DNA from: an uncultured Pseudorhodoferax sp.
GTDB taxonomy: Bacteria > Pseudomonadota > Gammaproteobacteria > Burkholderiales > Burkholderiaceae
NCBI GenBank assembly: GCA_913776795.1
Contig: CAJYRH010000416.1
Coordinates: 1 to 12,785 of the forward strand
Direction: 5' to 3'
Length of the DNA: 12,785 bases
Made by a program: the position numbers and the translations under genes. Numbering within the stretch: the stretch's first letter is position 1; each line of letters opens with the position of its first letter. This document shows, piece by piece, positions 1 to 12,785 of the stretch. The notes beneath the pieces were generated by a model that was not told where the DNA came from, ran no database searches, and saw only the letters and a list, made by a program, of their open reading frames with translations.

Positions 1-299
1 ACAAGTTCGGCGATGCGCTCAAGAACGTGATGCAGGGCGACAGGGGCTACGTGGTCTCCACCGTTCAGGCCCGCACGGCCGCCGGGCACCTGCCGTTCTC
101 CCGCATCGGCGAACTCTCGCACCAGAACGACCCGGAGCTCGGCTACAGCGTGCAGGCCCAGCCCAACCTGGACCAGAACACGGTGGACCTGGACCGCGAA
201 CGTGCCAATTTCGTGGACAACACCGTGCGCTACGAGGCCGCGCTGCGCTTCATCAACGGCCAGGCCAAGACCATGCTGACCGCCATCCAGGGGCAATAA
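1..299 (+). CDS. flgB: Flagellar proximal rod protein FlgB (5'-truncated by window edge)
   Basis: The reading frame begins at base 3 and shows 98 residues before the TAA at 297-299. FlgB is one of the proximal rod subunits of the flagellar basal body and assembles near the MS ring after export by the flagellar type III apparatus. The C-terminal part is diagnostic: a PNLDQNTVDLDRERANF stretch, then VRYEAALRFINGQAKTMLTAIQGQ-type sequence, matches the FlgB C-terminal helix, which ends in AIQGQ in many species. FlgB is usually about 135-140 residues, so roughly 40 N-terminal residues lie outside the window. The stop is followed after 11 bases by flgC, whose Shine-Dalgarno overlaps the stop codon, indicating co-transcription. 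Any promoter lies upstream of the window. Family and position at the head of the operon make the call secure. Confidence 0.95.
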   Translation, partial: KFGDALKNVMQGDRGYVVSTVQARTAAGHLPFSRIGELSHQNDPELGYSVQAQPNLDQNTVDLDRERANFVDNTVRYEAALRFINGQAKTMLTAIQGQ

Positions 300-310
300 G
301 GAGCTTCGCC

Positions 311-715
311 ATGTCGATGTTCTCGATCTTCGGCGTCTCGGGCAGCGGCATCAGCGCCCAGTCGCAGCGGCTCAACGTGGTGGCCTCCAACCTGGCGAAC
401 GTCGATGCCGTGGCCGGCCCCGACGCCCAGCCCTACAAGGCCCGCCAGGTGGTGTTCCAGACCACGCTGATGGGTGCCGACAGTTCGGCCGGCGTGGCCG
501 TACGCCAGGTCACCGAAAGCAATGCGCCGGCGCGAAAGGTGCTCGATCCGGACCACCCGCTGGCCGACGCCGAGGGTTACGTGACGCACTCCAACGTCAA
601 CGCGGTGGAGGAGATGGTCAACATGATCTCGGCCTCGCGCTCCTACCAGAACAACGTGGAAGTCATGAACACGGCCAAGACGCTGCTGCTCAAGACGCTG
701 CAGATGGGCCAGTGA
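311..715 (+). CDS. flgC: Flagellar proximal rod protein FlgC
   Basis: The 134-residue protein has the same length as enteric FlgC. It is a rod subunit of the basal body and is exported without a cleaved signal peptide. The N-terminal D0 helix carries the rod/hook family motif (SQRLNVVASNLANVDAV, about residues 17-33). It is followed by the PYKARQVVFQT segment typical of FlgC. The C-terminal helix (YVTHSNVNAVEEMVNMISAS, then SYQNNVEVMNTAKTLLLKTL) is the second half of the coiled-coil D0 domain. AAGGAG at 298-303 lies 7 bases before the ATG and overlaps the flgB stop. A second in-frame ATG two codons in is possible, but the first fits the Shine-Dalgarno. The next gene starts within 30 bases. 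Confidence 0.97.
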   Translation: MSMFSIFGVSGSGISAQSQRLNVVASNLANVDAVAGPDAQPYKARQVVFQTTLMGADSSAGVAVRQVTESNAPARKVLDPDHPLADAEGYVTHSNVNAVEEMVNMISASRSYQNNVEVMNTAKTLLLKTLQMGQ

Positions 716-741
716 GCCCGCGCTACCTGAAAGACACCACC

Positions 742-1404
742 ATGGCCATCTCCACCGACGTTCTGAACTCCGTCAACGGCGCAGGCAGTGCCGGCACCAC
801 CGGCGGCACGAACAAGAACGACTCGAGCGCTCAGGCAGTGCAGGACCGCTTCCTCAAGCTGCTGGTCGCGCAGTTGAACAACCAGGACCCGATGAACCCG
901 CTGGACAACGCGCAGATGACCTCGCAGATCGCCCAGCTCAATACCGTCACGGGCATCGAGAACCTGAATTCCACCGTCAACAACGTGCTGTCGCAGATGG
1001 CCTCGATGCAGGCGCTGCAGGGGGCGACCATGGTCGGCCACGAGGTGCTGAACGAAGGCTCCGCGCTGCAGGTCAGCGACAAGGTGGGCCGCGCCGCATT
1101 CGATCTGTCCGCCAATGCCGACGGGGTGAAGGTGCAGGTGCGCACCGCCAGCGGCACGCTGGTGGACACCATCGACATGGGCGCACTCGGCGCCGGCCGC
1201 CACGCCATCGAATGGGATGCGTCCAAGTACGGCGGCAACGAGGCGCTGCAGTTCACCGTGACGCCGACCAGCAAGAACACCGTCACGGCCACCGCGCTGC
1301 AGCGCTCGCGCGTCGAGTCCGTCAGCAACGAGAACAACGTGCTGACCTTGCACCTGGCCGGCGGCCAATCGCTGGCCTACGGCAACGTCAAGGCCATCCT
1401 CTGA
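742..1404 (+). CDS. flgD: Flagellar hook assembly scaffold (hook cap) FlgD
   Basis: FlgD caps the growing hook, promotes addition of FlgE subunits, and is lost when the hook is complete. The 220-residue protein carries the conserved N-terminal FlgD signature from residue 37 (FLKLLVAQLNNQDPMNPLDN, then TSQIAQLNTVTGIENLN). The C-terminal half is beta-rich and contains the FlgD Ig-like and tudor-like segments (VRTASGTLVDTIDMGALGAG, IEWDASKYGG). Length is close to the roughly 230 residues of enteric FlgD. I chose the ATG at 742 because MAISTDVLNSVNG resembles family N-termini. An in-frame GTG at 712 overlaps the flgC stop (GTGA) and would add 10 residues, but it has no Shine-Dalgarno. The chosen start also has only a weak upstream purine stretch, so translation may be coupled to flgC. 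Confidence 0.96.
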   Translation: MAISTDVLNSVNGAGSAGTTGGTNKNDSSAQAVQDRFLKLLVAQLNNQDPMNPLDNAQMTSQIAQLNTVTGIENLNSTVNNVLSQMASMQALQGATMVGHEVLNEGSALQVSDKVGRAAFDLSANADGVKVQVRTASGTLVDTIDMGALGAGRHAIEWDASKYGGNEALQFTVTPTSKNTVTATALQRSRVESVSNENNVLTLHLAGGQSLAYGNVKAIL

Positions 1405-1429
1405 ACCCCTCAAGCCTCAGGAGCTTTCC

Positions 1430-2656
1430 ATGGCATTCCAACAAGGTCTCTCCGGTCTGAACGCCGCCAGCAAGAATCTCGACGTCATCGGCCACAACAT
1501 CGCCAATGCGAACACCACCGGCATGAAGGCCTCGCGCGCCGAGTTCGCCGAGCTCTACGCCAACGCCATGGGAACGGCAGGCGGCATCAACCAGGGCCTG
1601 GGTGTGGAGGTCAACACGGTCTCGCAGCAGTTCACGCAGGGCAACCTGTCGGTGACCGGCAACTCGCTGGACGTGGCCATCAACGGCAACGGCTTCTTCC
1701 AGATCGACCAGCCCAACGGCACGCGTGCCTATACCCGGGACGGCTCGTTCAAGTTGACCAAGGAAGGCCAGATCGTGACCAACGACAACGGCGCCCTGCT
1801 GGGCGTCGTGGCCGACGCCAACGGCCTGATCCCGAGCGGTGGCGCGATCGGCCCGCTGGTGATGCCGGCGGGCGGCCAGATCGACGCCGCGCGCAGCACC
1901 AAGCTGGACCTGCGCCTCAACCTGGATGCCGGCGCCGCGGTGCCGACCGGCACGGCGCCGGCGGCGCTGACCCCGCCGATCGAGACGTACGGCACCTCGG
2001 CCGTGGCCTACAACGCGCAGGGCACCGCCGTTCCCATCGGCATCTACTTCACCAAGACCGCCAACAACAGCTGGGATGTCTGGACCACCGTGGACGGCGG
2101 CCCCATGACCAACAGCGGCTCCATGACCTTCGGCAACGACGGCGAGCTGACCTCGTCGTCGACGCTGACGTCGCTCAACCTCACGGAATCGGACGGCACC
2201 ACGACCTTTCCCGTCGCCTTCAACCTGGAGCGCGCGACGCAGTACGGCTCCTCGCGCTTCGGCGTGACCAAGGCACTGGCGGATGGCCAGACCTCGGGCC
2301 AGCTGACCGCCGTGAACATCGACGACGCCGGTGTGGTGCAGGGCGTCTACTCTAATGGCAAGACGCTGGCGGTCGGCCAGATCCAGCTCGCCACCTTCAC
2401 CAACGCCCAGGGACTGGCGCCGATCGGCGGCAACCTGTGGCTGGCGACGGCCGCCTCGGGCATGACGCCCACCGCCACCGGTACGCCGGGCAGCGGCAAC
2501 CTGGGCGTGGTGCGCGCCGGCACGCTGGAGGACTCCAACGTCGACCTGACCAAGGAACTCGTGAACATGATGACCGCGCAGCGCACCTACCAGGCCAACG
2601 CGCAGACCATCAAGACCCAGGACCAGGTCCTGAACACCATCCTGAATATTCGATGA
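1430..2656 (+). CDS. flgE: Flagellar hook protein FlgE
   Basis: FlgE polymerises into the hook, the universal joint between rod and filament. At 408 residues it is close to enteric FlgE (about 402). The N-terminal D0 helix has LNAASKNLDVIGHNIANANT (about residues 9-28). [12 protein letters not shown] follows at about 81-92 with TRAYTRDGSF just after, the shared hook/rod D1 signature. The C-terminal helix (about 368-408: DSNVDLTKELVNMMTAQRTY onward) closes the coiled coil. It lacks the FlgG-type L-stretch insertion that FlgG in this window has, which separates it from the distal rod protein. AGGAG at 1419-1423, 6 bases before the ATG, fixes the start. The TGA is itself part of an ATGA that begins intergenic repeat R1, so the usual tight operon spacing ends here. 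Confidence 0.97.
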   Translation: MAFQQGLSGLNAASKNLDVIGHNIANANTTGMKASRAEFAELYANAMGTAGGINQGLGVEVNTVSQQFTQGNLSVTGNSLDVAINGNGFFQIDQPNGTRAYTRDGSFKLTKEGQIVTNDNGALLGVVADANGLIPSGGAIGPLVMPAGGQIDAARSTKLDLRLNLDAGAAVPTGTAPAALTPPIETYGTSAVAYNAQGTAVPIGIYFTKTANNSWDVWTTVDGGPMTNSGSMTFGNDGELTSSSTLTSLNLTESDGTTTFPVAFNLERATQYGSSRFGVTKALADGQTSGQLTAVNIDDAGVVQGVYSNGKTLAVGQIQLATFTNAQGLAPIGGNLWLATAASGMTPTATGTPGSGNLGVVRAGTLEDSNVDLTKELVNMMTAQRTYQANAQTIKTQDQVLNTILNIR

Positions 2657-2787
2657 CCACCCCCGTCGCTTGCTCGCTTCGTGTAGCTGCATCGCCCCTC
2701 AAAAGGGCGACACCAGCGGCCCGGCAGCGCCGGTTCCGCGGTGTCTCCCGCCTGGGTCCGGCTTCATCCGTGGCCTGCGCCTGCTGA
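2657..2787 (+). repeat. Dispersed structured intergenic repeat, copy R1 (flgE-flgF gap)
   Basis: This is the most divergent of four copies. It starts at the ATGA that holds the flgE stop and continues CCACCCCCGTC, as in R2. Hairpins visible in order: (a) GCT 2672-2674 with AGC 2685-2687, plus CGC 2675-2677 with GTG 2681-2683, loop TTC and a bulged T; (b) TCGCCC 2692-2697 with GGGCGA 2705-2710, a 6-bp stem; (c) CCGGC 2721-2725 with GCCGG 2729-2733 (loop AGC), or alternatively GCCGG 2729-2733 with CCGGC 2758-2762 (24-base loop). The block CAGCGGCCCGGCAG then GGTTCCGCGGTGTCT is shared with the other copies. A frame from ATG 2653 to TGA 2787 is open and collinear with the frame in R2 (SLRV and RFRGV in both). 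The 3' boundary is approximate; 33 bases separate it from flgF. Confidence 0.75.
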
Positions 2788-2815
2788 TCCGCCCCCGTCA
2801 CGCACTTTGGAATCT

Positions 2816-2819
2816 GGAG
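2816..2819 (+). promoter_or_regulatory. Unusually close Shine-Dalgarno of flgF
   Basis: GGAG ends one base before the flgF ATG, whereas 5-9 bases is usual. A second purine patch (TTTGGAA, 2806-2812) lies at a more normal distance. An in-frame TGA at 2785-2787 and no other start codon rule out an upstream start, and MDHIIYTAM is the family N-terminus. The start is therefore correct and the spacing is truly odd. It fits weak or coupled initiation after the R1 repeat. Confidence 0.5.
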
Positions 2820-2820
2820 C

Positions 2821-3561
2821 ATGGACCACATCATCTACACCGCGATGACCGGCGCCCTTGCCGCCTCCGGGCGGCAGGCGGTGTTGTCCAACAACCTGGC
2901 CAACGTCTCGACCACCGGCTTTCGGGCCGAGCTGTCGAACTTCCGGTCGGTGCCGCTGAACGGCTCGGGCTCCAGCAGCCGGGTGTTCGCGCTGGAGACC
3001 ACGCGCGGCCACGACGAGAAGGCCGGCCCCGTGCAGCGCACCGGCCGCAACCTGGACGCCATGGCGCGCGACAACGCGTGGTTCGCCGTCCAGGGGCTGG
3101 ACGGCACCGAGGCCTACACGCGCGGCGGCTCCTTCGAGATCACGGCCGCCGGCACGCTGGTCACGCCCACCGGCCTGCCCGTGCTCAGCGATGGCGGAGC
3201 GCCCATCGACGTGCCGCCGAACGCCGAGGTGACGCTGGGCTCGGACGGCAGCATCACGGCCAAGGTCGGCAACCTGCCGCCCACCAACCTGGGCCGGCTC
3301 AAGCTGGCCACCCCCACCGCGGAGGACAGGCTCAAGCGCAGCGACGACGGGCTGTTCCGCACCACCTCGGGCGACCCCCTCGCCAGCGACCCGAACGCAC
3401 GCATGGCCGCCGGGGCACTGGAGGGTTCGAACGTGAATGCCGTGGAAACCATGGTGGGCATGATCCAGGTGGCGCGCCAGTTCGAAGTCCAGATGCGTTT
3501 GCTGCAACTCGCCGAAGCCGGCGACAAGAGTGCCAGCCAATTGCTGGGCACCCAAGGTTAA
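2821..3561 (+). CDS. flgF: Flagellar proximal rod protein FlgF
   Basis: FlgF is a rod subunit placed between the FlgB/C part and the FlgG distal rod. The 246-residue protein begins MDHIIYTAMTGA, matching the characteristic FlgF start (MDHAIYTAM in enterics), followed by [20 protein letters not shown] (about residues 18-37). The D1 signature is degenerate relative to FlgE and FlgG (DNAWFAVQGLDGTEAYTRGGSF), as is normal for FlgF. The C-terminal helix (about 200-246) has LEGSNVNAVETMVGMIQVAR. Length is near enteric FlgF (251). It follows the 164-base repeat-bearing gap and may start a second translation block (flgFGHI). The flgG start lies 12 bases beyond its TAA. Confidence 0.97.
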   Translation: MDHIIYTAMTGALAASGRQAVLSNNLANVSTTGFRAELSNFRSVPLNGSGSSSRVFALETTRGHDEKAGPVQRTGRNLDAMARDNAWFAVQGLDGTEAYTRGGSFEITAAGTLVTPTGLPVLSDGGAPIDVPPNAEVTLGSDGSITAKVGNLPPTNLGRLKLATPTAEDRLKRSDDGLFRTTSGDPLASDPNARMAAGALEGSNVNAVETMVGMIQVARQFEVQMRLLQLAEAGDKSASQLLGTQG

Positions 3562-3573
3562 GAAAGGTTCGCC

Positions 3574-4356
3574 ATGATCAATTCGCTCTGGATCTCCAAG
3601 ACCGGGATGGAAGCCCAGCAAACCCAGCTGGACGTCATCTCGCACAACCTGGCCAACGTGTCGACCACCGGGTTCAAGCGTTCCAACGCAGTGTTCGAAG
3701 ACCTGATCTACCAGAACCTGCGCCAGGTCGGCGCCAACAACACCGAGGCCGAGCAGTTGCCCACCGGGCTGCAGCTGGGCCTGGGTGTGCGCACGGTGGC
3801 CACCAGCCGCCAGTACTCGCAGGGTTCGCTGCAGCTCACCGAGAACCGCTTCGACGTGGCGATCAACGGCAACGGCTTCTTCAACGTGCAACTGCCCGAC
3901 GGCACGGTGGGCTACACGCGCGACGGCAGCTTCGAGGTCGACTCCCAGGGCCGCCTGGTCACCTCCAATGGCCTGCCCGTGGCGAACGGCATCACGATCC
4001 CGCCCAACGCCGTCAACGTGACCATCAGCGAGACCGGCACCGTGTCCGTGGTGTTGCCGGGCAACGCGACGCCGCAGACGGTGGGCACGATCGCCATGTC
4101 CAACTTCGTCAACCCGCCAGGCCTGGAGCCGCGCGGCCAGAACATCTTCACCGAGACCGCCGCCTCCGGGCAGCCGCAGGGCGGCACGCCGGGCACCAAC
4201 GGCCTGGGGGTGATGCGGCAGAACTACCTGGAGACGTCCAACGTCAACGTGGTGCAGGAGCTGGTGACCATGATCCAGACCCAGCGCGCCTACGAGATGA
4301 ACTCCAAGGCCGTGCAAACCTCGGACCAGATGCTGCAAAAGCTCGCGCAGCTGTAG
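3574..4356 (+). CDS. flgG: Flagellar distal rod protein FlgG
   Basis: FlgG forms the distal rod that crosses the periplasm inside the P and L rings. The 260-residue length equals that of enteric FlgG. The N-terminal D0 helix includes [20 protein letters not shown] (about residues 16-35). It is followed by the FlgG-specific L-stretch region ([20 protein letters not shown]), which makes the rod straight and distinguishes it from Flg[13 protein letters not shown] begins at residue 94 with GYTRDGSF after it. The C-terminal helix (about 219-260) carries [27 protein letters not shown] at 3561-3567, 6 bases before the ATG, supports the start. The TAG stop at 4354-4356 overlaps the Shine-Dalgarno of flgH. 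Confidence 0.98.
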
Positions 4357-4364
4357 GAGCCGCC

Positions 4365-5057
4365 ATGGCAAGAACCATCACCCTGCGCACCTGGCTGCTG
4401 GCCGTGGTCGCCTTCGCGCTCGCCGGTTGCGAGACCCTGCAGCAGACGCCCAAGGTCGAGTTTCCCGACACGGCGACGCAGCGGCCGGTGGCCATCGCGC
4501 CGCAAGCCGCGCCCGTCGCCACCGGGGGGCTGTACTCGCAGGTGCGTTACCGCCCGTTCTTCGAGGACCGGCGCCCGCGCATGCTCGGCGACACGCTCAC
4601 GGTGCAGATCGTCGAGAGCCTGAACGCCAGCCAGACCAGCACCGCCTCGGTCGACAAGACCGGCAACGTGAGCAGCGGCGTCACCGGATTGCCGTTCCTG
4701 TCCGCATCGCTGCTGGGCAAGCTCGGAGTGGGCGCCGAATCGGAGAACAAGTTCGCCGGCAGCGGCGGCACCGCAGCCGCCAACACCTTCAGCGGCACCA
4801 TCACCACCACCGTGGTGGACGTGCTGCCCAACGGCCACCTCGTGGTGCTGGGCGAGAAGCAGATCGGCGTCAACCAGAACGTGGACGTGCTGCGTTTTTC
4901 GGGCACGGTGGACCCGCGCGCCGTGCTGCCCGGCTCCATCGTGCCATCCACCTCGGTGGCCAACGTGCGTGTGGAGTCGCGCGGCCGCGGCCAGCAGCAG
5001 GACGCCATGGCAATTGGCTGGCTGGCCCGGTTCTTTTTGAGCGTTCTGCCGTTCTGA
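4365..5057 (+). CDS. flgH: Flagellar L-ring lipoprotein FlgH
   Basis: FlgH builds the outer-membrane L ring, a bushing around the distal rod. The 230-residue precursor has a lipoprotein signal: MARTITLR, a hydrophobic core, then the lipobox LAGC with the lipidated Cys at residue 22. The mature part contains family landmarks: GLYSQVRYRPFFEDRRPRML, GDTLTVQIVESLNASQTSTA, FSGTITTTVVDVLPNGHLVV and GEKQIGVNQNVDVLRFSGTV. It ends in an aromatic/hydrophobic tail (ARFFLSVLPF), as expected for an outer-membrane protein. Length matches enteric FlgH (232). The start at 4365 follows AGGAG (4355-4359) by 5 bases. A much longer frame open from 2670 is only upstream read-through in a non-coding frame. The gap to flgI is 43 bases. 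Confidence 0.97.
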   Translation: MARTITLRTWLLAVVAFALAGCETLQQTPKVEFPDTATQRPVAIAPQAAPVATGGLYSQVRYRPFFEDRRPRMLGDTLTVQIVESLNASQTSTASVDKTGNVSSGVTGLPFLSASLLGKLGVGAESENKFAGSGGTAAANTFSGTITTTVVDVLPNGHLVVLGEKQIGVNQNVDVLRFSGTVDPRAVLPGSIVPSTSVANVRVESRGRGQQQDAMAIGWLARFFLSVLPF

Positions 5058-5100
5058 GGCTTCGCACAATCACGGCAGCCCCCTCCATCCGAGCACTGCC

Positions 5101-6213
5101 ATGACATTCCTGCCGCGCCTCCTGCTTCCGCTGCTCGCCCTCGCACTGCTGGTCCAGCCGGTGCAGGCCATGCGCATCAAGGAAGTCGCCTCGGTGCAGG
5201 GCGTGCGCAGCAACCAGCTGACGGGCTACGGCCTGGTCGTGGGCCTGGACGGCACTGGCGACCAGACCACGCAGATGCCGTACACGACGCAGAGCCTGTC
5301 CAACTACCTGCAGCAGCAAGGCATCGTGCTGCCGGCCAACCAGGCCTCGCAGCTGCAGCTCAAGAACGTGGCAGCGGTGCTGGTCACGGCCGAGCTGCCC
5401 GCGTTCGCGCAGCCGGGCCAGGCCATCGACGTGACGGTCTCCTCCATGGGCAACGCCAAGTCGCTCAAGGGCGGCACGTTGATCGCGACACCGCTGCGCG
5501 GTGCCGACGGCGAGGTCTACGCGCTGGCACAGGGCAACCTGGTGGTGGCCGGCGCGGGTGCTGCCGCCGGGGGCAGCAAGGTGCAGATCAACCACCTGTC
5601 GGCCGGTCGCATCCCCGGTGGCGGCCAGGTCGAGCGCAGCGTTCCCACGCCGCTGCAGGACGGCGACCACATCACGCTGGGCCTGGATGCCTCGGACTTC
5701 CAGACCGCGCGCCGCGTGGCCAGCGTCATCAACGAAAAGCTGGGACAGGGCCTGGCGCAGGCGCTGGACGGCCGCACGGTGCAGGTGCGCGCCCCCAACA
5801 CGCCCCACGCCCGTGTGAACTTCATCGCCGAGCTCGAAGAACTGCGCTTCGACAAGGCCGTGCCGTCGGCGAAGGTGGTGATCAACTCGCGCACCGGCTC
5901 CATCGTGCTGAACCAGGCCGTGACGCTGGGGCCCTGCGCCATTGCACATGGGAACCTGTCGGTCAGCATCGCCACCACGCCGGTGATCAGCCAGCCGGCG
6001 CCGTTCTCGCAGGGCCAGACCGTGGTCGGCCAGCAGTCTGACATCTCGGTCAAGCAGGAGCCCGGAAAGCTGCTGCAGCTGCAGGGCGCGCCGCAGCTGG
6101 GCGACGTGGTGCGTGCACTGAACGCGCTGGGTGCCACGCCGCAGGACCTGCTGGCCATCCTGCAGGCCATCAAGGCCGCAGGCGCCCTCAATGCAGAGCT
6201 GGAGGTGATCTGA
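5101..6213 (+). CDS. flgI: Flagellar P-ring protein FlgI
   Basis: FlgI forms the periplasmic P ring around the rod in the peptidoglycan layer. The 370-residue precursor starts with a Sec signal peptide: a basic start, a leucine-rich core, and a likely AxA-like cleavage after VQA at residue 23, leaving MRIKEVASVQGVRSNQLTGY. Further family landmarks are GLVVGLDGTGDQT, VLVTAELPAFAQPGQAIDVT, SSMGNAKSLKGGTLIATPLR, KVVINSRTGSIV and TLGPCAIAHGNLSVSI. Length is close to enteric FlgI (about 365). There is no strong Shine-Dalgarno before the ATG, but the signal peptide requires a start here. Immediately after the TGA, one base later, is the ATG that begins repeat R2. Confidence 0.97.
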   Translation: MTFLPRLLLPLLALALLVQPVQAMRIKEVASVQGVRSNQLTGYGLVVGLDGTGDQTTQMPYTTQSLSNYLQQQGIVLPANQASQLQLKNVAAVLVTAELPAFAQPGQAIDVTVSSMGNAKSLKGGTLIATPLRGADGEVYALAQGNLVVAGAGAAAGGSKVQINHLSAGRIPGGGQVERSVPTPLQDGDHITLGLDASDFQTARRVASVINEKLGQGLAQALDGRTVQVRAPNTPHARVNFIAELEELRFDKAVPSAKVVINSRTGSIVLNQAVTLGPCAIAHGNLSVSIATTPVISQPAPFSQGQTVVGQQSDISVKQEPGKLLQLQGAPQLGDVVRALNALGATPQDLLAILQAIKAAGALNAELEVI

Positions 6214-6350
6214 CATGAAGCACCCCCGTCTGAATTTCTCACTGCGTGTAGAAAATCCATCCCCCCTCGTGGGCGCACCGCCGGCGGCCTGGCAGAGCCG
6301 GTTCCGCGGCGTCTGCCGGCATGGCCTGCTCCGCGGCCTTCGGAACAGCG
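6214..6350 (+). repeat. Dispersed structured intergenic repeat, copy R2 (flgI-flgJ gap)
   Basis: R2 is nearly identical to R4 and begins directly after the flgI stop (TGA-C-ATGAAGCACCCCCGTC). Stem (a): TTTCT 6235-6239 with AGAAA 6250-6254, CAC 6240-6242 with GTG 6246-6248, loop TGC, one bulged T. Stem (b) is a weak C-run/G-run (CCC 6264-6266 with GGG 6271-6273). Stem (c): GCCGG 6297-6301 with CCGGC 6316-6320, 14-base loop; CTGGC 6289-6293 can instead pair with 6297-6301 using one T-G wobble. The 53-base block 6286-6338 aligns without gaps to R3 and R4. A 63-codon frame (6215-6406) runs from the repeat ATG to a TGA one base before flgJ. After the repeat, 6351-6407 shows nothing further except the flgJ ribosome-binding site. 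Confidence 0.85.
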
Positions 6351-6396
6351 GCCCGCCTGCCACTTCTGGATCCTGCGTGCGGCGCGCCGGCGCCGT

Positions 6397-6400
6397 GGAG
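6397..6400 (+). promoter_or_regulatory. Shine-Dalgarno that decides the flgJ start
   Basis: GGAG lies 7 bases before the ATG at 6408. It favours that start over the in-frame ATG at 6321, which sits inside repeat R2 and would add 29 residues unlike FlgJ. Confidence 0.65.
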
Positions 6401-6407
6401 CTCTGAC

Positions 6408-7274
6408 ATGTCGCTTTCGCCGCTGGTCCCCAACAACAATGCACTGGCCGCCGACGCCCGCTCGCTGGATTCCCTGAAGGCGCAGGCCGGCAAGGACGGC
6501 GCGGGCGCCGTCAAGGAGGCAGCCAAGCAGCTGGAGTCGCTGTTCATGCGCGAGCTCATCAAGAGCATGCGCGACGCGACCATGAAGTCCGGCCTGTTCG
6601 ACAGTCCCCAGAGCGATGTCAGCAAGGACCTGCTGGACCAGCAGCTCTCGGTATCGATGTCCGGGCTGCCTGGCGGCCTGTCATCGGCCATCGAGCGCCA
6701 GCTGTCGCGCCACACCGTGGCGATGGACAACACGCGCGTGCTGCCGCCGTCCGACGACGCCGAAAAGGTGTCCCGGCCCATGCCGGCAGGCACCGGCAGC
6801 GCCAAGCACGGTTTCGTGCAGCAGCACCAGGATGCGGCAGAGCGCGTCGAGCGGCAAAGCGGCATCCCGGCCAGCTACATGATCGGCCAGGCCGCCCACG
6901 AGACCGGCTGGGGCAAGCGCGAGATCAAGCACAGCGACGGCAGCACTTCGTTCAACCTGTTCGGCATCAAGGCCGGCCCGGGCTGGACCGGCAAGGTGGC
7001 CGAGGTGACGACCACCGAGTACGTGAACGGCGAGGCCCGCAAGGTCAAGGCCAAGTTTCGCGCCTACGACTCCTACGAGGACTCGTTCCGCGACTACGCC
7101 AACATGATCACCAACAGCCCGCGTTACGAGAAGGTGCTCAGCAAGACGGATTCGCCGTTGGCCTTCGCCACCGCGCTCAAGCGCGCTGGCTACGCCACCG
7201 ACCCGGACTACGCCGGCAAACTCAGCCGCGTGATCAACAGCACGCTGCAGGTGCAGCGCGCCTTGAACGCCTGA
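6408..7274 (+). CDS. flgJ: FlgJ: rod-binding cap fused to peptidoglycan hydrolase
   Basis: FlgJ caps the growing rod and cuts peptidoglycan so that the rod can pass. This 288-residue protein has both parts. The N-terminal rod-binding domain (about residues 20-105) includes AAKQLESLFMRELIKSMRDA, SGLFDSPQSDVSKDLLDQQL and MSGLPGGLSSAIERQL. After a linker, the C-terminal GH73-type glucosaminidase/muramidase domain (about 130-288) has FVQQHQDAAERVERQSGIPA, the catalytic AAHETGWG with Glu165, FNLFGIKAGPGWTG, FRAYDSYEDSFRDYANMI and AGYATDPDYAGKLSRVI. The dual-domain form is typical of Beta- and Gammaproteobacteria; it is a little shorter than the 313 residues of the enteric protein. No signal peptide is present, as expected for export by the flagellar apparatus. 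flgK starts 13 bases after its stop. Confidence 0.97.
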   Translation: MSLSPLVPNNNALAADARSLDSLKAQAGKDGAGAVKEAAKQLESLFMRELIKSMRDATMKSGLFDSPQSDVSKDLLDQQLSVSMSGLPGGLSSAIERQLSRHTVAMDNTRVLPPSDDAEKVSRPMPAGTGSAKHGFVQQHQDAAERVERQSGIPASYMIGQAAHETGWGKREIKHSDGSTSFNLFGIKAGPGWTGKVAEVTTTEYVNGEARKVKAKFRAYDSYEDSFRDYANMITNSPRYEKVLSKTDSPLAFATALKRAGYATDPDYAGKLSRVINSTLQVQRALNA

Positions 7275-7287
7275 TCTTCGGCGCGCC

Positions 7288-9183
7288 ATGAGCAACATCC
7301 TGAACGTCGGTGTGCGTGCGCTGCAGGCCAACCAGGCGGCGCTGTCGACCACCGGCCACAACATCGCCAACAACGCCACGGTCGGCTACTCGCGCCAGGT
7401 GGTCAAGCTGGCGACGGTGGAGGGCCAGTACACGGGTGGCGGCTACATCGGCAAGGGCGTGGAGGTGGCGGCGATCGAGCGCGTCTACGACATGTACCTG
7501 ACACGCCAGGCCGCGCTGACCAAGTCGGTGTCGGCACAGGACGTGGCCCGTGCCGAGAAGCTGCTGCAGCTCGAAGGGCTGTTCAGCACCGGCAAGACGG
7601 GCCTGGGCGCCTCCGTCAGCGAACTCATGAACGCGTTCTCGGACGTGGCCAGTGCGCCGACCGACCTGACCGCGCGCACCGTGGTGCTGACACGCGCCTC
7701 GGAGACCGCGTCGCGCTTCAACGACACGGCCGCCCAACTGGCCAACCTGCAGCGCGGCCTGACGGAGGAACTGGAGAACAGCGTGGCGACCGTGAACACG
7801 CTGGCCGCCAACATCGCCGACGTGAACCGCCAGATCCAGGCGGTCTCCGGCCTGAGCGAGTCGCCCAACGACCTGCTGGACCGGCGCGACCAGCTCATCA
7901 GCGAGATGAACAAGTACGTTCAGACCACCACGCTGGAGAACAACGACGGCACCGTCAACGTGTTCGTCGGGCAGAGCCAGCCACTGGTGCTGGCCAACCG
8001 GGCCATGGCGCTCAAGGTGGCGAACGACCCGCTGGACGCCACGCGCACCGAACTGCGCCTGGTCAACGGCAACACCGAGCTTAAGCTGCAGGACACCATG
8101 CTTGGCGGCGGCTCGCTGTCGGGCCTGATGCGCTTTCAGAACGAGGACCTGGCCGAGGCGCAGAACCTGCTGGGCCGCATGGTGGTCTCGCTCACCACGG
8201 TCATCAACGCGCAGCACAAGCTGGGCCTGGACCTGGACGGCAAGCCCGGCGCCGACCTGTTCACGCCGATCGCGATGCCCGACGGGGCGCCCTTCGTCAA
8301 CAACGCCGGCACGGCAACCATCGGCCTCGGCGTGGCCGATGCGAGCCAGCTGCATGCGTCCGACTACCGCGTGACGTTCACCTCGCCGACCGCCTACACG
8401 GTGACGCGGCTGTCGGACAACGCCACGGTGCCGGTCGACCCCGGCCCGCCGCCCACCGCGGACGGCCTGGCACTGAACATCGCGGGGGGCGCGGCCGCCA
8501 CCGGCGACAGCTTCCTGCTGCGGCCGTACGCGCAGGCTGCCGGTAACATGCACACGCTGTTCGCCTCGCCGCGCGAACTGGCCGTCGCCAGCCCGGTACA
8601 GGCCAACATGGGCACCACCAACACCGGCGGCCTGACCGTCGGCAAGCTGGCCGCAGGCGCGGTTCCCGCGCCGGCGAACGTCACCATCACCTTCACGAGC
8701 GGCACCCAGTACACGCGCTCGGACGTGCCCGGAACCTTCACCTACAGCCCGGGCACACCGATCACCTACGACGGCAGCACGCCGCCCGCCTGGACGCTGA
8801 CGATGACCGGTGCGGCCCAGGCCGGCGACACGCTGACCGTGGGCGCCATCAGCCCGGCCTATGCGCCGCTGGACGCTGGCAACGCCAAGGCCCTGATGGA
8901 CCTGCGGGACATGAAGCTGTTCGACGGCGCACCGCTGACGGACGGCTATGCGTCGCTGATCGCCAACGTCGGCGTGCGGGCGCAGAGCGCGCAGTATTCG
9001 GCCGACGTGTCCAAGTCCATCGCCGACGGCATCGAATCGCAACGCGCCGGTGTCTCGGGCGTGAACCTGGACGAAGAGGCCGCCAAGCTGATCCAGTACC
9101 AGCAGGCCTACCAGGCATCGGCCAAGATGCTGCAGGTGGCGCAAAGCATTTTCGACAGCCTCATCTCGACCATCGCCCGGTGA
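7288..9183 (+). CDS. flgK: Flagellar hook-filament junction protein FlgK (HAP1)
   Basis: FlgK is the first junction layer between hook and filament. The 631-residue protein has the conserved N-terminal D0/D1 helix (NVGVRALQANQAALSTTGHN, then ATVGYSRQVV, about residues 6-35). The D1 coiled region includes SVSELMNAFSDVASAPTDLT, NDLLDRRDQLISEMNKYVQT and an NVFVGQSQPLVL segment. The C-terminal helix (590-631) begins SGVNLDEEAAKLIQYQQAYQ and ends QSIFDSLISTIAR. It is longer than enteric FlgK (547); the extra length lies in a Thr/Ala/Pro-rich middle (roughly residues 345-530), the surface-exposed and fast-changing D2/D3 part. No clear Shine-Dalgarno precedes the ATG, which lies 13 bases after the flgJ stop, so coupling to flgJ is likely. 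Repeat R3 follows the TGA directly. Confidence 0.97.
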   Translation: MSNILNVGVRALQANQAALSTTGHNIANNATVGYSRQVVKLATVEGQYTGGGYIGKGVEVAAIERVYDMYLTRQAALTKSVSAQDVARAEKLLQLEGLFSTGKTGLGASVSELMNAFSDVASAPTDLTARTVVLTRASETASRFNDTAAQLANLQRGLTEELENSVATVNTLAANIADVNRQIQAVSGLSESPNDLLDRRDQLISEMNKYVQTTTLENNDGTVNVFVGQSQPLVLANRAMALKVANDPLDATRTELRLVNGNTELKLQDTMLGGGSLSGLMRFQNEDLAEAQNLLGRMVVSLTTVINAQHKLGLDLDGKPGADLFTPIAMPDGAPFVNNAGTATIGLGVADASQLHASDYRVTFTSPTAYTVTRLSDNATVPVDPGPPPTADGLALNIAGGAAATGDSFLLRPYAQAAGNMHTLFASPRELAVASPVQANMGTTNTGGLTVGKLAAGAVPAPANVTITFTSGTQYTRSDVPGTFTYSPGTPITYDGSTPPAWTLTMTGAAQAGDTLTVGAISPAYAPLDAGNAKALMDLRDMKLFDGAPLTDGYASLIANVGVRAQSAQYSADVSKSIADGIESQRAGVSGVNLDEEAAKLIQYQQAYQASAKMLQVAQSIFDSLISTIAR

Positions 9184-9311
9184 CATGAAACACACCCAGT
9201 CTCCGCGCTGCGCGCTCCGCCAACCACTTGCAGGCGGTGCCGCCAGCGGCCGCGCAGAGCCCGCGCCGCGGCGTCTGCGGGCATGGCCAGCCCCGCGGCC
9301 GCTCGAACCGC
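9184..9311 (+). repeat. Dispersed structured intergenic repeat, copy R3 (flgK-flgL gap)
   Basis: R3 starts one base after the flgK stop (TGA-C-ATGAAACACACCCAGTC). The 5' hairpin is rewritten but present: GCGC 9205-9208 with GCGC 9212-9215 around the same TGC loop found in R2 and R4. Main stem: GCCCG 9259-9263 with CGGGC 9278-9282, 14-base loop; compared with R2 and R4 the fourth pair has become C-G. The competing upstream arm (CGCGC 9251-9255) has one mismatch here. The block 9248-9300 aligns without gaps to R2 and R4 and ends in the same CCGCGGCC. A 60-codon frame (9185-9367) runs from the repeat ATG to a TGA two bases before flgL. The remaining gap, 9312-9369, holds nothing else I recognise. 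Confidence 0.8.
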
Positions 9312-9369
9312 TTTGTGTGAGCAGGTTCCATGCCCTGCGGATGGCGCGCCTCACCGCGAAGAACTGAAC

Positions 9370-10635
9370 ATGGCCAACACCTTCACCCGCCTGGGCACCG
9401 CCAACACCTTCGATGCTGCGCGGCAGACGCTGCAGACGCGCCAGTCCACCCTGGCCGACCTGCAGGCCAAGCTCACCGAGGGCAAGCGCGTGGTGCGTCC
9501 CAGCGACGACCCGACCTCCGCCGCCCAGGCCGAGCGTGCGCAGACGCGCATCGCCCGCATCACGGTGGAACAGCGCGCGCTGGAGACGCAGAAAAGCGCC
9601 ATCGCGCTCGGCGAATCGACGCTGGGCGATGCCACGGCGCTGCTGCAGCAGTTCCGCGATCTGCTGGTGCAGGCCGGCAGCGGCGTCAACAGCCCGACGG
9701 AACGCGAGACCATCGCCAAGCAGCTGGTGGGGCTGCGCGACGAACTGATCACGCTGGCGAACCGCAGGGACGCCAACGGCCTGCCGCTGTTCCACGGCCT
9801 CGGCAGCACCTCCGCCCCGTTCGAGGTCAGTGCCGACGGCACCGTGCCGGACCCCGACTACAGCTTCAACGGCCTGGCCGGCCAGGTGGGTGGCGACGAC
9901 GTGGCCATCCCCGGTACGCTGGACGGCCGCGCCACCTGGATGGACGTGCCCGAGAGCAACGGCGTGTTCAAGGTCAGCCTGGGCGCGGCCAACACCGGCA
10001 GGCTGTACACGGACGTTGGCCTGATCAAGGACGCTTCGCTGATGGGCAGCGAGGGCACGGACTTCTCGCTGACCTTCCACGTGGACGCGGCCACGGGGGC
10101 GATGCGCTACGACGTCACCAACAACACCACCGGTGTCGTCACCACGGGCCAGCCATACAAGGAAAACCAGACCATCACGCTGGGCGGCATTTCCATCGTG
10201 GTCAAGGGCGTTCCGGCCGAGGGCGACCAGCTGGAGGTCGATGCCACGGTGCCCAGCGAGCGGCCCAGCATCTTCGGCGTGCTGGACCGCGCCATCGCCG
10301 GCATGTTCGAGCCCGGCAGCTCGACCAAGGGCGCGGCCAGCGCCAACGCCAACTTCAACCACGAGCTGGCGATTTCGCTGGCCCAGGTGGACACCAGCCT
10401 GGAGCGCATCGGGGCCATGCGTGGCCGCGCGGGCGACCTGCTCAACCGGGCCGACCGCATCGACGCGACCCAGCAGAGCCGCAACGTGCAGGCCGAGGGC
10501 GACCGCTCGCGCGCGGAGGACATGGATATGATCCAGGGCCTGTCGGACTTCCAGAACCAGCAGACGAGCTACCAGGTGGCATTGCAGACCTACGCATCGA
10601 TCCAGAAGCTCTCGCTGTTCGACTTCATCCGGTGA
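9370..10635 (+). CDS. flgL: Flagellar hook-filament junction protein FlgL (HAP3)
   Basis: FlgL is the second junction layer, between FlgK and the flagellin filament, and resembles flagellin at both ends. The protein is 421 residues from the ATG at 9370. N-terminal helices carry QTLQTRQSTLADLQAKLTEG, KRVVRPSDDPTSAAQAERAQ and ALGESTLGDATALLQQFRDL, followed by TLANRRDANGLPLFHG, the FlgL/flagellin D1 pattern. The C-terminal helices (ISLAQVDTSLERIGAMRGRA, DMDMIQGLSDFQNQQTSYQV, ending KLSLFDFIR) close the coiled coil. It is longer than enteric FlgL (317), with the extra length in the variable middle domain (about residues 150-310). An in-frame ATG at 9283 lies inside repeat R3 and adds 29 residues of low-complexity sequence, so I reject it. 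There is no good Shine-Dalgarno at 9370; a short upstream frame ends two bases before it. Confidence 0.96.
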   Translation: MANTFTRLGTANTFDAARQTLQTRQSTLADLQAKLTEGKRVVRPSDDPTSAAQAERAQTRIARITVEQRALETQKSAIALGESTLGDATALLQQFRDLLVQAGSGVNSPTERETIAKQLVGLRDELITLANRRDANGLPLFHGLGSTSAPFEVSADGTVPDPDYSFNGLAGQVGGDDVAIPGTLDGRATWMDVPESNGVFKVSLGAANTGRLYTDVGLIKDASLMGSEGTDFSLTFHVDAATGAMRYDVTNNTTGVVTTGQPYKENQTITLGGISIVVKGVPAEGDQLEVDATVPSERPSIFGVLDRAIAGMFEPGSSTKGAASANANFNHELAISLAQVDTSLERIGAMRGRAGDLLNRADRIDATQQSRNVQAEGDRSRAEDMDMIQGLSDFQNQQTSYQVALQTYASIQKLSLFDFIR

Positions 10636-10769
10636 GATGAGCCCTCCCCCGTTTGGATTTCTCACTGCGTGTAGAAATCCCATCCCCCCCAGGGGGCGCC
10701 GCCAGCGGCCTGGCAGAGCCAGTTCCGCGGCGTCTGCTGGCATGGCCTGCTCCGCGGCCGTTCGACCTG
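10636..10769 (+). repeat. Dispersed structured intergenic repeat, copy R4 (after flgL)
   Basis: R4 starts one base after the flgL stop (TGA-G-ATGAGCCCTCCCCCGTT). Its 5' hairpin is the strongest of the four: GGATTTCT 10655-10662 with AGAAATCC 10673-10680, CAC 10663-10665 with GTG 10669-10671, loop TGC and one bulged T. Next is a C-run/G-run hairpin (10684-10688 with 10692-10696). Main stem: GCCAG 10718-10722 with CTGGC 10737-10741, 14-base loop; an identical CTGGC at 10710-10714 can pair with the same GCCAG around an AGA loop. The block 10707-10759 differs from R2 only at 10721 and 10738, which pair with each other. A 71-codon frame (10637-10852) spans the gap and its TGA overlaps the next gene's ATG. 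Confidence 0.85.
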
Positions 10770-10787
10770 TGGCTTGCAAGCGCGGTC

Positions 10788-10814
10788 TAACTCTCGCGAA
10801 TGACGCGCCGGCAC
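10788..10814 (+). promoter_or_regulatory. Possible FliA (sigma-28) flagellar promoter
   Basis: TAAC at 10788-10791, 15 bases, then GCCGGCAC at 10807-10814. The classical FliA pattern is TAAA, 15 bases, GCCGATAA. Spacing is exact and the GCCG core matches, but the rest of the -10 box is poor (one of four). Placed between R4 and the HDOD gene, it would give that gene late flagellar expression. This is a weak pattern match only. Confidence 0.25.
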
Positions 10815-10840
10815 AATGGACACTTGAGTTTTTGGGCCGC

Positions 10841-10846
10841 GAGGAG
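10841..10846 (+). promoter_or_regulatory. Close Shine-Dalgarno of the HDOD gene
   Basis: GAGGAG ends two bases before the ATG at 10849; counted from GAGG alone the distance is 4. The spacing is short, as at flgF, and again follows a repeat copy. Confidence 0.45.
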
Positions 10847-10848
10847 TC

Positions 10849-12048
10849 ATGACGCAATCGGTCGTCGGCAGCATCACCCTGGGCTACCGCCCCCTGTGGA
10901 ACCAGGCCCGCGAGCTCGAGGCCGTGCAGTTGTTCGTCGAGGCGGCCCAGGGGGGCGCCATCGACGCAGTGCATTTCGTGGCCGCGCTGCAGGAACTCTC
11001 GTCCATGGCCACGCCGCAGCTGCTGCTGTCCATGCACAACAAGCGTCTCTTGTCGGACATGCTGGCGCATGCGCCGGCCGGCGACTACTGGATCGAGGTG
11101 CGCGGCGAATGGCTGGCCGAGGCCGACATCTACGAACGCACCCAGGCCGCGCACGCGCGCGGCCTCAAGCTGGTGTGGCGAGGCGCGCAGGAGGACTGGG
11201 CCAAGGCGCCGCTGCGGCACTGCTTCTTCCTGCGCATGCTGCGCATGGCGCCGTTCACCGCCGCCGCGGCTCTGCAGGCCGCCGCCGCCAACCGCTTCGC
11301 CGACATCACGCTGGAGCCGGGGCAGATCTACGAGGACGTGCAGAGTCGCGCATTGGCCAGCCTGTGCCTGGACCGGGCCGGCGCGCTGGCGATTGCCGGA
11401 TGGCCTTCGGAGGACGTGCTGCACGCGCACCGCCACCAGCCCGTGGCGCCGGATGGCGAGGTGATCCGCCGCGCCGGCAAGGCGGTGGACCAGGACCAGT
11501 CGATGGAGCAGATCGAGGCCGTGGTGCGCGAGGAACCCGTGCTGGCCTACCGCTTCCTGTCGTTCACCAACTCGGCCGCGATGGCCGGGCGCGGCGGCAT
11601 CGACTCGGTCCGCCACGGCCTGATGATGCTGGGCTACGGCGCGCTGGGCCGCTGGCTCGCCGAGCAGGGCGCGCATGCGGCGACCGACATCGACCTGCGC
11701 CCGGTGAAGGCCCAGATGGTGCTGCGCGCGCGCCTGACCGAACACCTGCTGGACGCCGGCGCCGAGGATGGCCTGCGCCGCGAGGTGTACCTGTGCGGCC
11801 TGTTCGCCGAGCTCGACCTGCTGCTGCATGAGCCGCTGGGCGTGGTGCTGAACCGCCTGCCGCTGTCCGAACGCATCTACGCCGCCGCCGTCAAGCGCAG
11901 CGGCCCCTACGCCCCGGCCCTGCAGGCCGCCCGGGCCATGGAGGGCGACGACACGCCTGCGCTGCGTGCCGTCTGCCGCGCCCACGGCATCGGCGTGGAA
12001 GAGGCGAACCGGCAGCTGCTGCGGGCGCTGGTGGGCGCGCGGCGCTGA
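10849..12048 (+). CDS. Degenerate EAL plus HDOD domain protein (putative regulatory output protein)
   Basis: The 399-residue soluble protein has no signal peptide or membrane segment. The N-terminal part resembles a decayed EAL domain: GSITLGYRPLWN (residues 7-18) matches the usual opening strand, and ELEAVQLFVEAA follows. The catalytic EAL, metal-binding and DDFGTG-type motifs of c-di-GMP phosphodiesterases are not visible, so it is probably catalytically inactive. The second half (about 200-310) is HDOD-like: QDQSMEQIEAVVREEPVLAY, RFLSFTNSAAM, then a VRHGLMMLGYGALGRWLAEQ stretch. HDOD proteins lack the HD catalytic pair and tend to act as scaffolds in signalling, motility and c-di-GMP output; the exact role here is unknown. 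It lies just after flgL on the same strand, so it may be co-transcribed or driven by a late flagellar promoter. It converges with the next gene at 16 bases. Confidence 0.8.
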   Translation: MTQSVVGSITLGYRPLWNQARELEAVQLFVEAAQGGAIDAVHFVAALQELSSMATPQLLLSMHNKRLLSDMLAHAPAGDYWIEVRGEWLAEADIYERTQAAHARGLKLVWRGAQEDWAKAPLRHCFFLRMLRMAPFTAAAALQAAAANRFADITLEPGQIYEDVQSRALASLCLDRAGALAIAGWPSEDVLHAHRHQPVAPDGEVIRRAGKAVDQDQSMEQIEAVVREEPVLAYRFLSFTNSAAMAGRGGIDSVRHGLMMLGYGALGRWLAEQGAHAATDIDLRPVKAQMVLRARLTEHLLDAGAEDGLRREVYLCGLFAELDLLLHEPLGVVLNRLPLSERIYAAAVKRSGPYAPALQAARAMEGDDTPALRAVCRAHGIGVEEANRQLLRALVGARR

Positions 12049-12064
12049 GGCCGGCCGGCGCCGT

Positions 12065-12785
12065 TCAGTACGTCAGTTCGCGCGCCCGCGTGCCGCTGGC
12101 GCCTTCCAGCCGGTTGTCGCGCAGCACCACGCGGCGCTCGCCGGGCGACACACGCAGCCAGGTGCCACCGGCCGGCAGGTCGTCGACGAGCACGTTGTCG
12201 TGCATCACGAGTTCGTTGTCGGGCCAGCCGTAGCCCTCGACACCGTACGAGACCATGACGGGGTTGGTCGTGCCGGGGCCCTGGCGCAGCCGGTTGCGGC
12301 TCACGCGCGCCAGGCCGCCATTCGGAAACTCCAGCTCGTAGCTGGCGCGGCCGGCGTCGCTGTCCGTCAGCTGGTTGCGGTGGATCTCGTTGCGCGCGGC
12401 GCGGCTCTTGAGCAGGTGGCCCCCACGGGCATCGTGGAACGCGCTGTCGGTCACCGTCAGCAGGCCGATGCGGCCCACGTAGAGGTTGTGGCTGTAGCCG
12501 TCGCCATGGCCGTTGTCGCGGAAGACGCAGCGCTCCAGCGTCAGTTCGGCCTGGTCGTCGCCCGCGGTCAGGATGCCGTTCTCGTTGTCGGTGAAGCGGC
12601 AGTCGACGGCGCGCAACCGGCCGCTCTCGAAGCGGATGCCGGCGCCGTTCCGGTTGGGCACGCGGGTGCCCTCGAAGTCGAAGCCCTCGATGCGGATGTC
12701 GCCGCCGCGCACCACCCAGATGGCCTTCTTCTCGGCGCTGGCGCCATCGGCGAGCAGCCGCACCCGGCCGCCCACGGCGCGCAGC
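12065..12785 (-). CDS. Right-handed parallel beta-helix repeat protein (N-terminus beyond window)
   Basis: This - strand frame is open through the window edge at 12785 and stops at 12065-12067, so 240 C-terminal residues are seen. It shows the irregular short repeats of a pectate-lyase-type right-handed beta-helix: IRIEGFDFEGTRV, GIRFESGRLRAVDCRFTDNE, GILTAGDDQAELTLERCVFR, LLTVTDSAFHDARGGHLLKS and VVLRDNRLEG, each with the N-x-G or D-x-x-F turn pattern. Such proteins are secreted or cell-surface enzymes or binding proteins acting on polysaccharide, but no catalytic residues can be assigned here. A GTG at 12775 is in frame, but the preceding codons (LRA) also fit the fold, so the true start is probably outside the window. 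Its link to the flagellar genes is doubtful; it is convergent and probably a separate unit. Confidence 0.75.
   Translation of the reverse strand, partial: LRAVGGRVRLLADGASAEKKAIWVVRGGDIRIEGFDFEGTRVPNRNGAGIRFESGRLRAVDCRFTDNENGILTAGDDQAELTLERCVFRDNGHGDGYSHNLYVGRIGLLTVTDSAFHDARGGHLLKSRAARNEIHRNQLTDSDAGRASYELEFPNGGLARVSRNRLRQGPGTTNPVMVSYGVEGYGWPDNELVMHDNVLVDDLPAGGTWLRVSPGERRVVLRDNRLEGASGTRARELTY

Follow-up and report, generated by a model that had tools for sequence, protein, structure and literature searches.

Several kinds of small repeat or structure near bacterial genes have been described, and each is summarized here from an excerpt of the source cited. Repetitive extragenic palindromic (REP) sequences and bacterial interspersed mosaic elements (BIMEs) are palindromic, extragenic and present in high copy number (PMC2817692). 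BRE, a GC-rich dispersed repeat of ~90 bp in Bordetella and its relatives, the Comamonadaceae included, occurs in tandem and sometimes inside coding sequences, with 1-29 copies in the listed Comamonadaceae (PMC3110155). ERIC, BOX and other miniature inverted-repeat transposable elements (MITEs), together with the Rickettsia palindromic elements, are small, mobile and palindromic, and can hold a reading frame (PMC10969869). The Chunjie MITE of Geobacter uraniireducens appears in the reference list of that review under a title that has it inserted in an operon without disturbing its structure, and in the review's text as disrupting one of two phosphate uptake operons (PMC10969869). Stable structures immediately behind stop codons, termed RTS, are reported to govern re-initiation and to be depleted at operon-internal positions (PMC7518266), and the Bor repeats of Bordetella are stem-loops of 26-30 bp near coding regions (PMC1590033). 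Here we describe a dispersed palindromic element of ~190 nt, four copies of which (R1 to R4) lie among the flagellar flg genes of an uncultured Pseudorhodoferax sp. The window, which is the whole stretch of DNA analyzed, comprises 12,785 nucleotides (contig CAJYRH010000416.1, positions 1 to 12,785).

The element first came to attention through three 53-base blocks, at 6286-6338 (R2), 9248-9300 (R3) and 10707-10759 (R4), which align without gaps; a re-check of the sequence upheld this. The blocks are the middle of the ~190-nt element in its Pseudorhodoferax form. In an extended alignment of 110 copies, conservation reaches from TGAnATGA on the 5' side to TGGAcaaCTGAnATG on the 3' side, with ~190 nt between. 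Within it lie three palindromes: H1, a hairpin formed by a C-run and a G-run, and a long hairpin whose tip reads CTGGC-AGA-GCCAG. H1 (10655-10680 in the window, alignment columns 9-34) combines a freely covarying stem with a strongly conserved loop, TCACTGCGTGTA. This loop may be a recognition site, and it contains a conserved TAG that closes one of the three reading frames.

We consider it somewhat probable that this is a mobile palindromic repeat whose presence behind stop codons within operons is tolerated because passing ribosomes translate it, and we infer both translation and mobility from sequence. In the Pseudorhodoferax form the upstream stop is overlapped or abutted by a predicted NTG start at the 5' edge, and the start of the next gene likewise by the predicted stop at the 3' edge. 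A ribosome finishing the upstream gene would restart on the element, read through its hairpins, and then restart on the next gene; with such a hand-over, insertion would not cut the translation of the operon. The palindromes would be retained for the spread of the element as hairpin DNA, perhaps by means of a single-strand transposase acting in trans.

Copies were located by BLAST and profile searches. Those studied are not a random sample: they are the best matches to R4 or to a model of the core, and comprise 80 of the places listed for six genomes and 60 places picked by hand from core matches across the family. The family alignment holds 153 copies and 131 columns, with 129 rows once those at least 95% identical were removed; a core alignment of the same copies, after filters for length and 93% identity, holds 57 diverse rows from several genera. 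The 153 matches correspond to 149 unique places; the 5' end is present at 115 of these and both ends at 110. The nearest flg loci are those of Pseudorhodoferax, with FlgK identity of up to 94%, and matches occur in all six nearest Pseudorhodoferax genomes (at least 29, 40, 40, 10, 40 and 40, with at most 40 of 102-151 candidates scored in each). Of 120 genomes sampled from the family, 85 contain a core match.

The position of the copies is highly regular. Only upstream stops that end a frame of 90 codons or more were counted. Of the 115 places with a 5' end, 105 begin 1-11 nt after such a stop, with the element on the coding strand; five begin 19-67 nt after one, and five have none. The upstream gene runs the same way as the element in 142 of the 153 matches, is opposite in 8 and uncalled in 3, where the strand of neighboring genes, here and in the counts below on orientation, frames and other genera, comes from crude gene calls based on codon composition. 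All 82 profile matches (45 places) in 80 flg loci and the window are on the operon strand. Among 59 loci from other genomes with a core match, a co-oriented stop lies within 75 nt of the core in 58 of 64 places, and at 53 of these 58 the coding score equals or exceeds that of the antisense frame. Four of the five plasmid copies whose neighbors are annotated follow a co-oriented gene, and three more plasmid copies are without annotation. The full layout between annotated genes is seen on plasmid pCNB of Comamonas testosteroni, where arsC and the gene of an arsenic transporter are joined as TGA-A-[63 codons]-TGA-C-ATG. A copy on a Methylibium plasmid (NC_008826.1, 473961-474007; L264) lies antisense inside an annotated transposase and is an exception to the stop-codon rule. 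In loci of other genera (L197-L255), a different GC hairpin, GAAGCGCCTGCGGCGCC or GAGTCGCTTCGCGCC for example, often stands in for H1, with the core and its place behind a stop retained.

Close spacing to the stop and orientation along the coding strand, other genera included, are also what would be expected of a functional mRNA 3'-end or intercistronic element, selected at useful places, whose hairpins stabilize the upstream message or damp re-initiation. The role in re-initiation reported for structures right behind stops points the same way (excerpt of PMC7518266). On the other hand, the same excerpt reports RTS to be depleted inside operons, whereas most of the present copies stand before a gene on the same strand. 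With the evidence on frames, pairing and orthologous sites given below, we regard an element of this kind as unlikely.

Reading frames bear on the proposed passage of ribosomes. In R2, R3 and R4 a frame opens at +1 of the upstream stop and extends to the next start, and in many copies a frame of ~63 codons runs from the upstream stop to the next start. A start codon close to the upstream stop is present in 97 of the 110 full-length copies, at -4 in 49 of them and at +1 in 31. In 97 of the 110, a different set, the next gene is on the same strand, and 73 of these contain a frame of 45-75 codons, against one of 11 copies with an opposite-strand gene (possibly 0 of 10, as copy L169 was classed there though its small frame ends TGA-C-ATG) and one of two undecided copies. 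In the 73 framed copies the stop falls at -4 (23) or +1 (25) of the next start. When only ATG is accepted as a start, the counts are 65 of 97 and 1 of 11 (Fisher p 0.0003). Just 5 of 87 same-strand copies, as against 3 of 8 opposite-strand copies, use the phase that runs into the conserved TAG in the loop of H1 (p 0.018). A frame that is open across the hairpins in most same-strand copies counts against the mRNA element, since ribosomes would melt the hairpins.

The peptides themselves are unlike between copies, and different frames are used. It follows that the peptide sequence is not what is kept, and a conserved peptide was excluded on this ground. An open frame with coupled start and stop is what a small gene with an important product of ~63 residues would show, and five predicted database proteins of 58-63 residues are 75-83% identical to one copy. 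Nevertheless, the copies read the same nucleotide sequence in two or more frames, which gives unlike peptides; the five proteins are all named only 'hypothetical protein', and the three window peptides match no Pfam family at E<=1. That the product itself matters is thus very improbable.

The two ends of the element tend to be in phase. Fifty of the 87 same-strand copies with a start retain a stop triplet at the terminal columns, and in 40 of these 50 the end phases are in frame together, against 22.2 expected (0 of 20,000 permutations); it weighs against our interpretation that this permutation ignores the relatedness of the copies. On a tree of the copies, the two commonest phase classes are interspersed, with 18 changes in total; the second class needs nine, of which the starred branches force four. 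Several further points weigh on the same side as the relatedness of the copies. Well-supported branches provide four independent pairs; on average 3.5 of these point in the expected direction and 0.0 in the opposite one, a number too small to reach significance. Of 83 ATG copies, 52 also keep the frame two bases on open over 150 nt, compared with 75 for the frame itself; much of the openness thus stems from avoidance of one conserved TAG, and our confidence is reduced by this second open frame. No frame of 45-75 codons is found in 24 of the 97 same-strand copies, and R1 is without a start. A Shine-Dalgarno-like motif precedes the small-frame start in 24 of 97 copies. Copies from other genera often have a shorter frame or none, though they keep the place behind the stop.

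Covariation in H1 and the long hairpin is strong, and it is in the tip of the latter that the pairing first proposed has to be revised. The preliminary description noted that R2 and R4 differ solely at 6300/10721 (G/A) and 6317/10738 (C/T) and that R3 has C9262 and G9279 there, all of which is correct; it took the two positions as partners in a main stem, GCCNG/CNGGC. Across the family, 6300/10721/9262 and 6317/10738/9279 form standard pairs in 72 of 126 copies and rank 5320 of 8256 column pairs. The observation named beforehand as speaking against the pair, independence of the two columns in a large alignment, is what was found (G 11.5, permutation p 0.18). In the 57-row core alignment all 500 shuffles match or exceed the pairing of this five-pair stem, whose key pair is unpaired in 35 of 55 rows. 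Column 93 (6317/9279/10738) is T in 110 of 126 copies whatever stands in column 76 (AT 60, CT 40, GT 8, TT 2).

The true partner of column 76 (6300/9262/10721) is column 66 (6290/9252/10711), ten bases upstream. The two columns are paired in 122 of 127 copies (TA 65, GC 42, CG 13) and rank first of the 8256 column pairs in the 129 non-redundant rows. In the core alignment, the hairpin through column 66 has 94.1% of its cells paired and double changes in 10 of 15 pairs, a level that none of 500 shuffles reaches. Columns 10, 12, 13 and 14 of H1 with columns 33, 31, 30 and 29 are also among the best covarying pairs, and the long hairpin holds further covarying pairs in its lower part. Of the four window copies, R1 has C-G as the true pair, R2 T-G, R3 G-C and R4 T-A.

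Two observations weigh against this reassignment. The pair first proposed is formed in all four window copies; and of the 16 non-redundant copies with a base other than T in column 93, four form it, three of which are R1, R2 and R3 of the window. We read the agreement within the window as coincidence, not as covariation at the level of the family, and a local effect in this lineage may lie behind it. That the GCCNG/CNGGC stem, closing a 14-nt loop, is selected as such in RNA or DNA is hardly credible in view of the family counts, in spite of its presence in every copy of the window. With three aligned copies and an arm that has two similar complements close by, the window by itself does not decide the partner. 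The lesson is that covariation over three copies can indicate the wrong partner when an arm has two such complements in its vicinity. The wider claim, that selection acts on a fold and not on a peptide, stands in part: the palindromes covary strongly and no single peptide is kept, frames differing between copies, but the pair named was the wrong one. Moreover, the open frame kept before most same-strand genes makes translation a possible constraint, so that 'not on a peptide' holds for the peptide sequence and leaves room for selection on the frame.

The type of mismatch bears on the molecule in which the palindromes matter. In H1 and the long hairpin together, 2013 of 2096 cells are Watson-Crick, 10 are G-T or T-G, 17 are A-C or C-A, and 56 are other mismatches; the core alignment has 8 G-T and 13 A-C cells. 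A helix selected in sense RNA should tolerate G-U, and since G-T is no commoner than A-C the evidence leans away from a fold of the sense RNA, which also counts against the mRNA element. Folded singly as RNA, the four window copies have z-scores of -1.84, 0.25, -1.36 and 0.46, and their folds differ from copy to copy; single-sequence folding was set aside as unexceptional, and it too counts against the mRNA element. No Rfam family matches the window at the gathering threshold, or positions 10620-10860 at E<=1. The data lean towards palindromes that are hairpin DNA, or whose symmetry is of mutational origin, over structured sense RNA, and they are probably needed as DNA.

A purely mutational origin would mean that template switching copies one arm onto the other in a decaying repeat without function. 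The great excess of Watson-Crick cells, with mismatches that have no wobble bias, is just what copying predicts. Template switching leaves the anchoring to stop codons, the orientation and the match of end phases unexplained, however, and we judge it improbable as a full account.

Presence and absence at orthologous sites, as expected of mobile elements, were found at four flg junctions when the window was compared with six relatives (L001-L006). In the window, the flgI-flgJ junction reads TGA-C-ATGAAG ... CTC-TGA-C-ATG. In the relatives it is empty (TGA-n-ATG) in L001-L004 and filled in L005, by a shorter copy, and in L006, by a related copy. Among these seven loci, the window alone has copies at flgK-flgL and flgE-flgF; behind flgL, L001, L003, L004 and L006 also carry a copy, and L002 and L005 do not. 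By FlgI, FlgJ, FlgK and FlgL the closest relative is L001; with its flgI-flgJ junction empty, the pattern at R2 calls for either precise loss or repeated gain. Over 81 loci, occupancy is 10/78 for flgI-flgJ, 3/80 for flgJ-flgK, 2/60 for flgE-flgF, 1/81 for flgK-flgL, 5/81 behind flgL and 3/37 for flgH-flgI, with none at four other junctions. Such patchiness at orthologous sites also argues against the mRNA element. The fillings of flgI-flgJ in Pseudorhodoferax and Acidovorax-like genomes are of different subtypes, and this junction is suggested to be a hot spot or a site of repeated turnover.

The four repeats, all on the forward strand, share this layout to different degrees. R1 (~2657-2820) is a diverged copy between flgE (stop 2654-2656) and flgF, with no ATG directly behind the stop; the tip of its long hairpin is at 2721-2733, and its true pair is C2722-G2732. 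R2 is a full element (6214-6407) between flgI (stop 6211-6213) and flgJ (start 6408). Its open frame of 63 codons (6215-6406) is at +1 at both junctions, and its long hairpin, placed by alignment column, spans 6277-6313 with the tip at 6289-6301 and a wobble, T6290-G6300, as the true pair. R3 (9184-9369) is a diverged copy between flgK (stop 9181-9183) and flgL (start 9370). It has an open frame of 60 codons (9185-9367) that begins at +1 behind flgK and ends 2 nt before flgL, and a long hairpin at 9239-9275, in whose tip (9251-9263) the true pair G9252-C9262 is formed and the pair one step inward (C9253, C9261) is broken. R4 (10636-10827) is a full element behind flgL (stop 10633-10635). Its frame of 71 codons (10637-10852) reaches the next gene, with an ATGA overlap at the start at 10849. 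The H1 of R4 (10655-10680) has arms at 10655-10661 and 10674-10680 round the conserved loop, and its long hairpin (10698-10734) has its tip at 10710-10722 and T10711-A10721 as the true pair. No promoter-like site was found in 2640-10900; the same interval has four terminator-like sites (shuffles average 4.9), none of them inside R1-R4. The gene behind flgL (10849-12048) encodes an HDOD domain (PF08668, residues 213-322), and a minus-strand frame near the end of the window (12065-12775) encodes a right-handed beta-helix domain (PF13229).

Marks of transposition were sought at the ends of the element and among transposase genes. The consensus ends contain no terminal inverted repeat; the best has 7 positions, and 90% of 2000 shuffles are as good. 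TGA stands at both edges of the consensus, and the spacer base agrees in three of the nine copies that are at +1 on both sides. Duplication of the spacer base is thus not a consistent target-site signature in these nine copies, which weighs against our interpretation. A Y1 transposase-like gene (PF01797, 230-278 codons) occurs once in each of six Pseudorhodoferax genomes (L191-L196). The absence of an element match at E<=1 from the six 3.3-kb loci around it is a further point on that side. A REP-associated tyrosine transposase (RAYT) was accordingly rejected as the mobilizer, there being one gene per genome with no adjoining copy of the element, and no cognate transposase was identified among the Y1 (PF01797) matches in the six genomes.

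A bolder form of the mobile-repeat reading is that the element is specialized for operons: it would insert behind stops in the coding orientation and be transparent to translation, with openness of the frame and not the peptide under selection, and with palindromes that serve as DNA hairpins for movement. We put this forward only tentatively. If true, a translation-transparent passenger of operons would represent a distinct life style among small repeats. If the mobile-repeat reading is right, many intergenic spacers in a large bacterial family would be translated passengers, not untranslated regulatory RNA, with consequences for the annotation of operons, for the passage of ribosomes from one gene to the next and for the question of how polar damage by small repeats is averted.

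Among known systems, passengers of the IS200/IS605 type insert 3' of a fixed short target, in one orientation, by a cognate HuH transposase. The TGA before most copies of the present element, its single orientation and the TGA at its right end recall such passengers, a resemblance and not a test. With REP/BIME and their RAYTs the element shares palindromes, high copy number and an extragenic position. It differs from them in being longer, in keeping a single orientation to the gene with no alternation (all flg profile matches being on the operon strand), and in not lying beside the Y1 transposase gene in six genomes; by eye, the consensus GTAG is at the 3' side of the H1 loop and not at the foot of a hairpin, where REP carry GTAG or GTGG. 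BRE is likewise GC-rich, dispersed and present in Comamonadaceae, and could be the same element or a relative; the comparison is by description and not by sequence, and tandem arrangement and copies within coding sequences are traits of BRE in the excerpt available. Bor repeats, also compared by description from an excerpt, are stem-loops close to genes, of 26-30 bp as against ~190 nt. In the portions of the literature consulted, mostly outside subscription papers, no description of this element was recognized, though BRE may match. For ERIC, BOX, other MITEs and the Rickettsia elements, the excerpted review has open reading frames within the elements and in-frame fusions inside genes, while the present frame spans from the upstream stop to the next start. 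Chunjie has conserved terminal inverted and direct repeats according to that excerpt (PMC10969869), whereas the present element is without a terminal inverted repeat. RTS share the place directly behind the stop codon; from the excerpt they are not a sequence family and are depleted in operons, unlike the present copies, which mostly precede a same-strand gene. We therefore file the element as a dispersed palindromic repeat of a known sort, whose anchoring to stop codons and frame running from gene to gene are unusual.

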